NCBI GenBank assembly: GCA_014189675.1
Contig: DVAE01000035.1
Span: 1-33,757, forward strand
DNA: 33,757 bases
Source of the DNA: Candidatus Undinarchaeales archaeon SRR5007147.bin71
Lineage (GTDB): Archaea > Undinarchaeota > Undinarchaeia > Undinarchaeales > Undinarchaeaceae
Direction of reading: 5' to 3'
Of this stretch, positions 7,757-12,467 are shown one piece after another; within the stretch, counting starts at the first letter, position 1; each line of letters starts with the position of its first letter. A program made the translations under genes and the position numbers. The notes beneath the pieces were generated by a model. That model was not told where the DNA came from. It ran no database searches and saw nothing but the letters and a program-made list of their open reading frames with translations.

Positions 7757-7921
7757 ATGACCAAATGCATAGAATGTGAAGCAGAAATAAATCTTCCATC
7801 AGGCCTTGAAAAAGGAGAAGTCATCGACTGCCCGGAATGCGGCGTCGAGCTAGAAGTAGTCAATGCTGAAAAGGGAGAACTAAGAGTCGCTGAAGTTGAA
7901 GGCGAAGACTGGGGACAATAA
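7757..7921 (+). CDS. lysW: LysW/ArgW-like amino-group carrier protein with variant C-terminus EDWGQ
   Basis: CIEC...CPEC zinc ribbon, ELEVV core, C-terminal GEDWGQ; strong SD aaaggaggt at 7744-7752; followed by lysX-like, lysY, lysZ, lysJ. Confidence 0.9.
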   Translation: MTKCIECEAEINLPSGLEKGEVIDCPECGVELEVVNAEKGELRVAEVEGEDWGQ

Positions 7922-8764
7922 ATGCTACGTGTAGGCTTTCTCTACTCCAAGATAAGACAGGATGAAAAACTGCTTCTAGAGGAGATGAGAAAAAGGAATT
8001 TAGAAATCGTCAAAATAGATGACAAAGAGCTAAACTTGAGTCTGGAGAAGCAAGACTTTGGAATAGATATCTTACTAGAAAGAAGTGTAAGTCATTCCCG
8101 AGCACTATATGCTCTAAAATTCTTCCAGAGTTACGGAATTCCCACTGTAAACACCTTTGATGTTGCCACAGTCTGCGGTGACAAGGCATATACTTCACTA
8201 GCACTTGAGAACCACGGAATTCCAACACCTAAAACAAGGGTTGCTCTTACAGAAGAAACGGCTATCCAGGCTATGGAAGAGCTTGGCTGGCCCTGCGTCA
8301 TAAAACCTGTAACTGGTTCATGGGCAAGAATGTGCGCAAAACTCAATGACAAAGATGCTGCGGAAGCAGTTCTTGAGCACAAAAAAGTTCTCGGAGAATA
8401 TATGCACTCAATTTTCTATATTCAGGAATACATAGAGAAGCCTGGAAGAGATATAAGAGCCTTCGTAGTCGGTGATGAAACTATTGCAGCAATTTACAGG
8501 GAATCAGAGCACTGGATTACTAACACTTCCCGCGGAGCAAGCGCCAGAAACTGCGAAGTTACTGAGGAATTAAATGAAATTTGTCTCAAAGCGTCAGAGG
8601 CAGTCGGCGGCGGAGTTCTTGCAATGGACGTTTTCGAAGGAAAAGATGGTTTAATGATGAATGAAGTTAATTATACAATGGAATTCAAAAATTCTGTTGA
8701 ACCGACTGGCGTTGATATCCCTAAAAAGGTAATTGACTACGTCGTGGAGAAGGCACGTAAATGA
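7922..8764 (+). CDS. lysX: LysX/ArgX ATP-grasp ligase (LysW-alpha-aminoadipate or LysW-glutamate ligase)
   Basis: RimK-like ATP-grasp: [57 protein letters not shown]. Confidence 0.9.
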
Positions 8765-9753
8765 AAGCAGCAATTATTGGAGCATCTGGTTACACAGGAG
8801 CAGACTTAATAAGGATTCTTGATAGTCATCCGGATGTCGAAATAAGCGCGATCACATCCAGGAAGTATATTGGAAAATCCGTCTGGAAGGCTCATCCTAG
8901 CATGCGAAATCTGAATCTAAGATTTACTGAATACACAAAAGATGCAGACGCAGATGTTATATTTTTAGCTCTGCCTCATACAGCTTCAATGGAAAAAGTT
9001 CCGGAACTTCTAGAAACTGGTGTCAAGGTTATTGACCTGAGCGCAGATTTCAGGCTTAAAGACCTCAAAATTTGGGAAAAAACCTACGGAGCAAAACACA
9101 CAGCTCCAAATCTTATTGAGAAAGCAGTGTACGGACTTCCTGAGCTTCATCGTGAAGAAATTAAGAAAGCAGATTTTGTTTCAGGAACTGGCTGCGAAGC
9201 AACTGCAGGTATCTTAGCTCTAGCTCCTCTTCAGGGAAAGGCTGACAAAGCAATTATTGATGTCAAAGTCGGAGGCTCAGCTGCCGGATCTACAGGAAAT
9301 GCCGGAACTCACTATCCTGCCAGAGCAGGGAATGTCCGTCCTTACTCTCCAAGTAAACACAGACACCAGGAGGAAATTAAACAGGAAACCGGCTTTGAGG
9401 TTTCAATGACAGCTCATGCGGTTGATTTAGTCAGAGGAATCCTGGCGACCTGCCACATACCCAATTTTTCCGAAGATGTTTCAAAGCTCTACAGAGATTT
9501 CTACAAAGATTCTCCCTTCATCAGAATTACACCAAAGGATCCAAAATTCCTTCCAAATCCAAAATATGTTGTCGGCTCAAACTACTGCGATATCGGCATC
9601 GTGACTGATGAAGAGCACAAAAGAACAGTAGTATTCTCTGCTATCGACAATCTTGTTAAAGGCGCATCCGGCCAGGCTATCCAGTGCATGAACTTGATGT
9701 TTGGATTAAAGGAGGAGACTGGATTGGAGGCACTGCCTCTATATCCAGCTTAG
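8761..9753 (+). CDS. lysY: LysW-aminoadipate/glutamate semialdehyde reductase (ArgC-like)
   Basis: [56 protein letters not shown]. Confidence 0.92.
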
Positions 9754-9754
9754 G

Positions 9755-10534
9755 ATGTTCATAGTCAAAATCGGTGGAAGTGTTTTGAGCCAGAGCGAAG
9801 AAATTGTAAAAGATCTTGCAAACTATAAAGATTTTATTGTCGTTCACGGAAGCGGTCCCCAAGTTGACAAACTAACTAAGGAGAGGCTCGGAAAAGAGCC
9901 ACGCTGGGTCTATTCTGTCAGCGGAGTAAAGTGCAGATATACTGACTCTGAAGTTATTTTGCTTCATCAGGAAGTATGCAGAGAGCAAAGTTCAAAACTC
10001 GTTGAACTCCTAAAAACTAATGGGATGGACGCAGTCGGCTTCGCTGAAAGTCCAATAATTTTTGCCAAAAGAAAAGAAGCTATCAAAGTTATTGAAAACG
10101 AAAAAAAGAAAATTCTAAGGGGAGACCAAAGCGGAAAAATTGAGAGAATAGATTCCGAGGGTCTAAAATCAGTACTTTCTAAAGGAAAAATTCCAGTTAT
10201 ACCTCCTCTAGCAATTGGTCACAATGGAGAGCCCCTGAATGTTAATGGAGACCGAGTATGCGCTTACCTTGCCCGTGAGCTTGGGGTTGATACAATAATT
10301 AATCTGAGTAATATTCCAGGATTCCTAAGAAATGAAAAAGTAGTTCCTGAAATAAAACTTAATGAACTTGAACAACTTAGAAAGGAAACACGGGGTGGCA
10401 TGTCAATCAAACTTATTGGAGTTCAAGAAGCCATGAACTTTGGAGTTCAAAAATTCGTAATCTCATCCGGAGAAATAGATAAGCCAGTAAGCTCCGCACT
10501 AGCTGGAAAAGGAACGGTGTTCTTACATGGATAA
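9755..10534 (+). CDS. lysZ: LysW-aminoadipate/glutamate kinase (ArgB-like)
   Basis: FIVKIGGSVL, VVHGSGPQVDKL, NVNGDRVCAYLARELG, TRGGMSIKL. Confidence 0.92.
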   Translation: MFIVKIGGSVLSQSEEIVKDLANYKDFIVVHGSGPQVDKLTKERLGKEPRWVYSVSGVKCRYTDSEVILLHQEVCREQSSKLVELLKTNGMDAVGFAESPIIFAKRKEAIKVIENEKKKILRGDQSGKIERIDSEGLKSVLSKGKIPVIPPLAIGHNGEPLNVNGDRVCAYLARELGVDTIINLSNIPGFLRNEKVVPEIKLNELEQLRKETRGGMSIKLIGVQEAMNFGVQKFVISSGEIDKPVSSALAGKGTVFLHG

Positions 10535-11687
10535 GGAAGATAAATTTATTGAAAGCGTCTATTCAAAGAGAAAGATAGAGTTAGTTCGCGGCAAAGGTGC
10601 CATAGTATTCGATTCTGAAGAAAGGGAGTATATTGACTGTTTTGACGGACAAGGAGTTGCACTAGTCGGTCACGGCGTCGAAGAAATCAATTCCGCTGTA
10701 AAAGAGCAGATGGATAAAATTTCAGTTGTAGCTCTTAGTTTCTATAATGAGGTTCGCGCAGAGTTCGGAGAAAAACTTGCTTCAATCTCACCAAAAGGAA
10801 TGACGCAAGCTTTTCTGGCGAATTCAGGAACAGAAGCAATCGAATGCGCGATCAAACTTTCAAAAAAGTACACAGGAAAGCCAGGAATTGTTGCAATGAG
10901 TGGGGGATTCCACGGAAGAAGTCTCGGAGCCCTGAGCGCGACCTGGAAACCGATGTACAGAAAACAATACGAACCACTTCTTCCTGACTTCAGTCACGCA
11001 AAGTTCAATGATATTGAAAGCCTAAAACAGACAATTACAGATAAAACAGGAGCCGTTATGCTCGAGCTCGTTCAGGGAGAAAAAGGGGTAGTACTTTCAG
11101 ACAAGGAGTACGTAAAAGAGCTCAGGGAATTCTGCACTGAGAAAGAACTCTTGCTAATTATTGACGATGTACAGGCTTTTGCCCGTACAGGAAATTTCTT
11201 CAGCTCACAGACCTACAATATTGTGCCAGATATTACTACAATTGCAAAAGGGATGGCAGGTGGAATCCCAATGGGTGCCTGTATTGCAAGCCCGGAGATT
11301 ATGGACGCATTCAAGCCCGGAGATCACGGGACTACAATGGGCGGAAATCCAATTGCTTGTGCTGCCGGAACTGCAACTATTGATTATATACAAAAAAACA
11401 ATCTTATTGAACATGGCGCTTCCATGGGAGAAAGGATGCTGAAAGGTATGAAAGAACTCGAAAGCTTCGATGTAGTCAGAGAAGCAAGAGGTATCGGGGC
11501 AATGCTGGCTCTGGAATATAAGTTTAAAATGGCCGGAGTTCTTCCAAATATACAAGAGAATGGAGTAATACCTCTAACTTCAGGAAAAAGAGCTCTCCGA
11601 TTTCTTCCGCCCCTTTGCATAAGTGAAGAGCAAGCCGATAAAGTCATTGAAGTTACTAAAAAGGTCACGGAGGAGTTCAAACAATGA
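10527..11687 (+). CDS. lysJ: LysW-lysine/ornithine aminotransferase (ArgD-like, PLP class III)
   Basis: NSGTEAIECAIKLSKKYTGK, GGFHGRSLGALSAT, IIDDVQAFARTG, TIAKGMAGGIPMGA. Confidence 0.92.
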   Translation: MDKEDKFIESVYSKRKIELVRGKGAIVFDSEEREYIDCFDGQGVALVGHGVEEINSAVKEQMDKISVVALSFYNEVRAEFGEKLASISPKGMTQAFLANSGTEAIECAIKLSKKYTGKPGIVAMSGGFHGRSLGALSATWKPMYRKQYEPLLPDFSHAKFNDIESLKQTITDKTGAVMLELVQGEKGVVLSDKEYVKELREFCTEKELLLIIDDVQAFARTGNFFSSQTYNIVPDITTIAKGMAGGIPMGACIASPEIMDAFKPGDHGTTMGGNPIACAAGTATIDYIQKNNLIEHGASMGERMLKGMKELESFDVVREARGIGAMLALEYKFKMAGVLPNIQENGVIPLTSGKRALRFLPPLCISEEQADKVIEVTKKVTEEFKQ

Positions 11688-12352
11688 AGATTCTGATTTA
11701 CGATTGTCACAAGGGCAAAGTTCAGGAAAGCGAGAAAATTAAGAAAGCACTTCTAAGAGGGCATCCTGATTTAGAAATCGACATAGCCGAAGTAAGGAAA
11801 TTTCAATTTCCGGACACAGGGAATTACGATGCTTTTATTGTTTCCGGAGCTGACGGGCATTCTGAAAAGCACGCTTGGCCAAGACTAATTAAGGAGCAGA
11901 TTTCTAAGATTATTGAAATCGGTAAACCTGTACTCGGCGTCTGTTTCGGGAGCCAAATTCTTGCGGAACTTAATGGCTTTGAAATTATTACACTAAAAAA
12001 GCCTGAGATAGGTTGGGTACAAGTTAACTTAACAGATCTCGGAAAAGAAGACCAACTATTCAAGGAACTTCCTACCAGCCTGCCTATATACCAATACCAT
12101 ATTAGGGCAGTAAAAGGAGACGGCAAGGTGCTTGCAGAGAGCAAAAATTGCATACAGGCCGTCAAATACAGTGACACTATTTACGGGATACAATTCCACG
12201 CCGAGGAAAGCCCCGAATCCGGAAAAGAATATTTAAAAACAGACCGAAAATGTGAAAACTATGACGAAGCTAGTGCTCTGGCTCCAGAAGAATACATCGA
12301 ATGGAAAATTTATCGAAATTTTATCGATATTATAACCAAAACCGTTAAATAG
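11684..12352 (+). CDS. class-I glutamine amidotransferase / gamma-glutamyl hydrolase-fold protein, stand-alone
   Basis: nucleophile elbow PVLGVCFGSQIL (Cys codon 11942-11944) and YGIQFHAEESPE (His/Glu); ATGA overlap with lysJ stop. Confidence 0.85.
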   Translation: MKILIYDCHKGKVQESEKIKKALLRGHPDLEIDIAEVRKFQFPDTGNYDAFIVSGADGHSEKHAWPRLIKEQISKIIEIGKPVLGVCFGSQILAELNGFEIITLKKPEIGWVQVNLTDLGKEDQLFKELPTSLPIYQYHIRAVKGDGKVLAESKNCIQAVKYSDTIYGIQFHAEESPESGKEYLKTDRKCENYDEASALAPEEYIEWKIYRNFIDIITKTVK

Positions 12353-12376: not shown

Positions 12377-12451
12377 AGCGGGATGGGGCAGCTTGGAGTG
12401 CCCGTCGGGCTCATAACCCGGAGGTCGATGGTTCAAATCCATCTCCCGCTA
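12377..12451 (+). tRNA. initiator tRNA-Met (CAT)
   Basis: AGCGGGA/TCCCGCT acceptor, three consecutive GC pairs GGG-CTCATAA-CCC in the anticodon stem, A1:U72, T-arm GATGGTTCAAATCCATC; TATA-like gttaaatag about 28 nt upstream. Confidence 0.95.
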
Positions 12452-12467
12452 CTAAGGTCACATTGTT

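Follow-up and report, generated by a model that had tools for sequence, protein, structure and literature searches.

The lys operon of Candidatus Undinarchaeales archaeon SRR5007147.bin71 carries, in the position of the [LysW]-lysine hydrolase LysK, a gene for a class-I glutamine amidotransferase (GATase) with an intact catalytic triad. LysK and GATases exclude each other among the archaeal operons examined, and a second GATase of unrelated fold occupies the place of LysK elsewhere, which the original prediction for this locus could not have known. The enzyme is probably a stand-alone thiol gamma-glutamyl hydrolase that represents a non-orthologous displacement of LysK, an outcome reached at least twice; its substrate, its chemistry, and both reactions discussed below are inferred, in the absence of an enzyme assay.

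The lys operon and its terminal GATase

The window, i.e., the whole stretch of 33,757 nucleotides that was analyzed, belongs to a genome (G000) of 624 kb in 39 contigs that is 83% complete. On its forward strand, the carrier gene lysW (7757-7921) is followed by genes encoding the carrier ligase LysX (7922-8764; TIGR02144, 352 bits, over the cut-off; motif GSWAR and substrate motif EFKNS), the reductase LysY/ArgC (8761-9753; TIGR01850, 391.8 bits), the kinase LysZ (9755-10534; NF010659, 206 bits, slightly under the cut-off of 223), and the aminotransferase LysJ (10527-11687; TIGR00707, 390 bits with a cut-off of 410; PF00202, 327.6 bits). The GATase gene (11684-12352) comes next, its ATG (11684-11686) overlapping the TGA of lysJ, and a tRNA-Met gene detected with ARAGORN (12377-12452) lies immediately 3' of the module.

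The carrier shows the Zn ribbon and the acidic C-terminal tail of the LysW family (PF21344, 55.8 bits with a cut-off of 27) but fails the requirement for the C-terminal Glu of EDWGE and remains under the cut-off of 75 for NF041070 (62.8 bits). Like the carriers of G001 and G002, it ends in EDWGQ, with the terminal Gln encoded by a CAA codon (7916-7918). In the systems studied so far, this is the residue that LysX loads, with the amine of the cargo bound to the gamma-carboxyl of the terminal Glu of the carrier (PMC10433800).

The GATase is a stand-alone protein of 222 amino acids, flanked by LysJ on one side and by tRNA-Met and a membrane protein on the other, and neither a synthetase partner domain nor an adjoining synthetase subunit was found. 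Its membership among class-I GATases is firm (PF00117, 65.4 bits with a gathering cut-off of 22.8). The triad comprises the nucleophile Cys87 (11942-11944) in the motif GVCFGSQ and the stretch His172-Ala-Glu174 (12197-12205; His172 at 12197-12199, Glu174 at 12203-12205) in the motif FHAE; it is invariant across G000, G002, and G003. The HAE that replaces the usual HPE is kept in both known orthologues (G002 and G003). The orthologue of G003 also matches the gamma-glutamyl hydrolase family Peptidase_C26 (PF07722, 33.5 bits with a cut-off of 20.5), for which no match was reported for the protein of the window. A structure prediction based on two sequences gave no usable model (pLDDT 42.5).

Gene order, motifs, and coordinates of the original prediction hold, as does its statement that the window lacks LysK; no M20 open reading frame was seen in the lys region. 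The absence of LysK is also borne out for the rest of the genome as far as the canonical enzyme is concerned, which was not found by searches with TIGR01902 in G000 (only 83% complete), G001, G002, or G003, but a single M20 peptidase was found in G000 on contig C4, outside the lys operon. It is ArgE/DapE-like (TIGR01910, 209.6 bits with a cut-off of 217.6) and stays under the cut-off of the LysK model (TIGR01902, 99.6 bits versus 163).

The association of the GATase with the operon is not due to chance, because the gene order and the EDWGQ carrier recur in G002, a member of the same genus, and the order and the GATase recur in G003, a 98% complete genome of the same order (lysS-lysW-lysT-lysU-lysX-lysY-lysZ-lysJ-GATase). 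The GATase of G003, encoded directly after lysJ, is 52% identical to that of the window; its carrier ends in EDWGE, and no M20 was found anywhere in this genome, which does not exclude hydrolases of other families. The GATases of G000 and G002 are 95% identical, with a dN/dS of 0.11 that is similar to that of lysX and falls within the range of 0.09-0.13 for lysW, lysX, lysY, lysJ, and the GATase; judging from these ratios, all operon genes compared are under purifying selection. In G001, a single deletion joins lysX at about codon 25 to the last approximately 25 codons of the GATase (L034:1482-1620 versus 7922-8000 and 12280-12352 of the window), after which lysW(Q) is an orphan and the tRNA-Met gene persists. 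Neither lysX nor a GATase of the window type was found in the relatives G004 and G005. A small Mrr/NERD-type nuclease-like gene lies 3' of the GATase in G003 (L030:7925-8389) and is missing from the window.

LysK and GATases in archaeal lys operons

A search for LysX in 394 archaeal genomes led to the extraction of 60 loci, and TIGR01902 was used to look for LysK in 59 genomes selected for the presence of LysX (with G001 added), all of them archaea. LysK exceeded the curated cut-off in 51 of the 59 genomes and fell below it in eight (G000, G001, G002, G003, G331, G382, G336, and G265), six of which have a GATase-fold gene inside the lys operon, either of class I (G000, G002, G003) or of class II (G331, G382, G336). 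None of the lys loci fetched from the 51 genomes with LysK contained a close relative of either enzyme (Fisher p 1.7e-7, not corrected for kinship), and LysK and a GATase never occurred together in one of the operons examined. The other two are G001, with the deletion described above, and G265 (L147:1-3100), which has an EDWGQ carrier and lysY-lysZ-lysJ, with no LysK over the cut-off in the genome and no GATase seen. The contig of G265 breaks off within lysJ, which leaves this case unresolved and a candidate for a further release enzyme.

The class-II enzyme is an Ntn-type GATase that starts with MCR, carries the motifs HAR and NGEL, and is unrelated in fold to the class-I GATase of the window. 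It is encoded between lysY and lysZJ in G331 and G382 (lysW(EDWGQ)-lysX-lysY-class II-lysZJ) and between lysY and lysZ in G336, whose carrier ends in EDWGE. Although a profile of the class-II protein recovered no further member in the fetched lys loci and close relatives among the 394 genomes were limited to G331, G382, and G336, the enzyme recurs in G424 (EDWGQ), G430, and G559 among 228 genomes of the phylum of G382. G559 harbors two operons; in one, W(EDWGQ)-X-Y-Z-J, the class-II gene sits exactly in the usual position of LysK, and the other, W(EDWGE)-X-Y-Z-J, ends in LysK. In two loci of family f126 (L071:10576-12579 and L073:10555-12564), lysZ and lysJ are fused and encode one protein of about 670 amino acids.

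The two unrelated folds imply at least two separate acquisitions. The trees of LysY, LysX, and LysJ require three to four switches between LysK and GATase, albeit with few independent lineages, and in the LysJ tree, the class-I operons group together (SH-aLRT 98), apart from those of class II. The LysY of the window's genus (8761-9753 in the window) is placed apart from that of G003 although LysJ and GATase group, which reflects either a mosaic operon or a long-branch effect.

Proposed release of the product from the carrier

Class-I and class-II GATases act via a gamma-glutamyl thioester. In the reaction proposed here, Cys87 would attack the gamma-carbonyl of the C-terminal Glu of the carrier and displace the completed product, lysine or ornithine, as the leaving group, and water would then resolve the thioester and regenerate a LysW ending in Glu. 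With ammonia as the leaving group, the same acyl-enzyme chemistry would convert the encoded LysW-Gln to a loadable LysW-Glu. Hydrolysis of LysW-gamma-Lys/Orn differs from deamidation of LysW-Gln only in the leaving group, and a single enzyme therefore probably carries out both the maturation and the discharge of the carrier in the genus of the window. Discharge of the product, which the original prediction had listed as a possible role, is quite likely even without an assay and is the best-supported of the two functions because the GATase of G003 accompanies a carrier that already ends in Glu, where it cannot be needed for deamidation, and this genome has no M20.

LysK, an M20 metallopeptidase (TIGR01902, PRK04443), shares with the GATases the operon position (window, G003, and G559) and the proposed reaction, in which the gamma-glutamyl amide that links the product to the carrier is cleaved. 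In both fold and chemistry, however, it differs from the enzyme of the window, which is a Cys-His-Glu thiol enzyme without a metal site. The class-I GATase fold serves as a hydrolase of gamma-glutamyl amides other than glutamine also in gamma-glutamyl peptidase 1 of Arabidopsis (GGP1; PDB 9k7i), in line with the role proposed here. However, GGP1 acts on glutathione conjugates (PMC3042935) and not on the tail of a carrier protein, and HPE is replaced by HAE in the protein of the window. Among class-II enzymes, EgtC cleaves a gamma-glutamyl amide in ergothioneine synthesis (PMC11993508) and is the nearest curated family of the proteins from G331 and G382, but the match is weak (24-27 bits with a cut-off of 218.7), and substrate and pathway differ.

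If the GATase served only to deamidate LysW-Gln to LysW-Glu, another hydrolase, such as the M20 peptidase of contig C4, would have to release the product. The encoded gamma-carboxamide is indeed not loadable by the chemistry of LysX, the exchange E54A in ArgW abolishes the pathway (PMC10433800), and G000-G002 do possess one M20. Such a restricted role is nevertheless unlikely, because G003 and G336 combine Glu-ending carriers and an operon GATase with the lack of a LysK over the cut-off, and G003 is without any M20 that could take over. Moreover, the M20 of the window's genus, itself under the LysK cut-offs, is present also in G001, where the genes from lysX to the GATase are deleted, and G005 has two M20s without lysX.

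Family searches leave room for a generic enzyme, either a glutamine amidotransferase or a glutaminase of the GuaA or PRK09065 type, whose place in the operon is fortuitous or whose role is to supply ammonia: the protein of the window matches GATase families only, the curated families that fit it best are general GATases, each with a score under its cut-off, and its strongest matches in the PDB are subunits A of GMP synthase, with GGP1 also included (E=1.9e-11). However, its score with the model of GuaA subunit A (PRK00758, 58 bits) does not meet the equivalog cut-off of 198, a GuaA-like subunit A is encoded separately in G000 (L026, 149.6 bits) and G003 (226 bits), and there is no adjacent synthetase partner. 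LysJ is a PLP transaminase, and the pathway has no requirement for free ammonia at any step. A generic function, which would leave the absence of LysK unexplained, is very improbable also because two genera have kept the gene directly behind lysJ, with orthologues found solely beside lysW-X-Y-Z-J. None of the findings that would have spoken against the original prediction, namely GuaA-type kinship, lack of co-occurrence with LysW, and a LysK elsewhere, was encountered. Decay of the carrier pathway in the window's genus, with Gln as a damaged tail, would agree with the deletion in G001 and with the lack of any match to LysS (homocitrate synthase) and of an ArgG (argininosuccinate synthase) over the cut-off in G000-G002, so that neither what the pathway starts from nor what it yields is clear for this genus; decay is hardly credible given the low dN/dS of the operon genes, the recurrence of EDWGQ in unrelated lineages, and the complete operon of G003.

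Displacement of LysK by thiol hydrolases, if true, would supply the release step that archaea without LysK seem to lack and would give the carrier-protein route to lysine and ornithine two further types of enzyme. It would also account for the Gln-ending carriers, which by the accepted chemistry look non-functional, and it leads to the prediction that glutaminase folds of class I and class II converge on the gamma-glutamyl amide of a protein tail. A literature search, which did not cover most subscription journals, returned no paper linking LysW or LysK with a glutamine amidotransferase.

Glutamine-ending carriers

The last residue of the carrier could be read in eight GATase operons; it is Gln in six (G000, G002, G331, G382, G424, and G559) and Glu in two (G003 and G336). 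Counted by family, Gln tails occur in 3 of 5 families with GATase versus 1 of 15 with LysK (Fisher p ~0.03), and this enrichment suggests an additional role of the GATases in deamidating the carrier, similar to that of Dop on Pup; a tree-based test had only one supported independent pair and therefore no power. The deamidation of EDWGQ envisaged in the original prediction is somewhat favored on this suggestive evidence, in the absence of an assay, but is less certain than discharge because one LysK family (f7) has a Gln-ending carrier. The co-occurrence expected along with it stands for the absence of LysK, in that six of the eight LysK-less genomes have an operon GATase, but not throughout for EDWGQ, given the EDWGE carriers of G003 and G336.

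Some actinobacteria encode a Pup ending in Gln; there, Dop is responsible for its deamidation as well as for the removal of the cargo (PMC8599861). The shared logic is the conversion of an encoded C-terminal Gln to Glu for ligation at the gamma-carboxyl and the removal of the cargo by the same enzyme, although Dop is glutamine-synthetase-like and uses ATP/Pi, and its carrier and cargo differ from those of LysW. The chances are about even that the lys operons converged on this logic, with a Gln-ending precursor that one glutaminase-type enzyme would mature and discharge via one gamma-glutamyl thioester. Such a system would have arisen at least twice from unrelated folds, each replacing LysK and freeing the last residue of the carrier to drift from Glu to Gln.

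The pairing of a Gln carrier with LysK in f7, a family inferred from its gene content to be Nitrososphaeria-like, is an unexplained exception, which implies either that Gln requires no GATase in the operon or that another deamidase exists. Most of the f7 loci (L087, L089-L093, L095, L097, L099, L101, and L104) encode two carriers; the LysX that accompanies W(EDWGE) has the glutamate-type motif EFKGL, the one that accompanies W(EDWGQ), adjoining LysK, has the Asn-type motif EYKNT/EYRNV, and L095 has only the Q set. A class-I GATase near the LysX of f7 was rejected as part of the same system; it is PRK07053-like and lies several genes off, beside an ADP-forming acyl-CoA ligase and outside the lys operon. 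EDWGQ-like patterns in G091 and on contig C161 of G360 were set aside, the former without a stop codon and the latter without a lys gene alongside. The LysX of the window carries GSWAR where most homologs have GSWGR, which is said to recognize EDWGE. GSWAR was rejected as a correlate of the Gln tail because G053 combines it with a Glu-ending carrier; it is present also in one LysX of G265.
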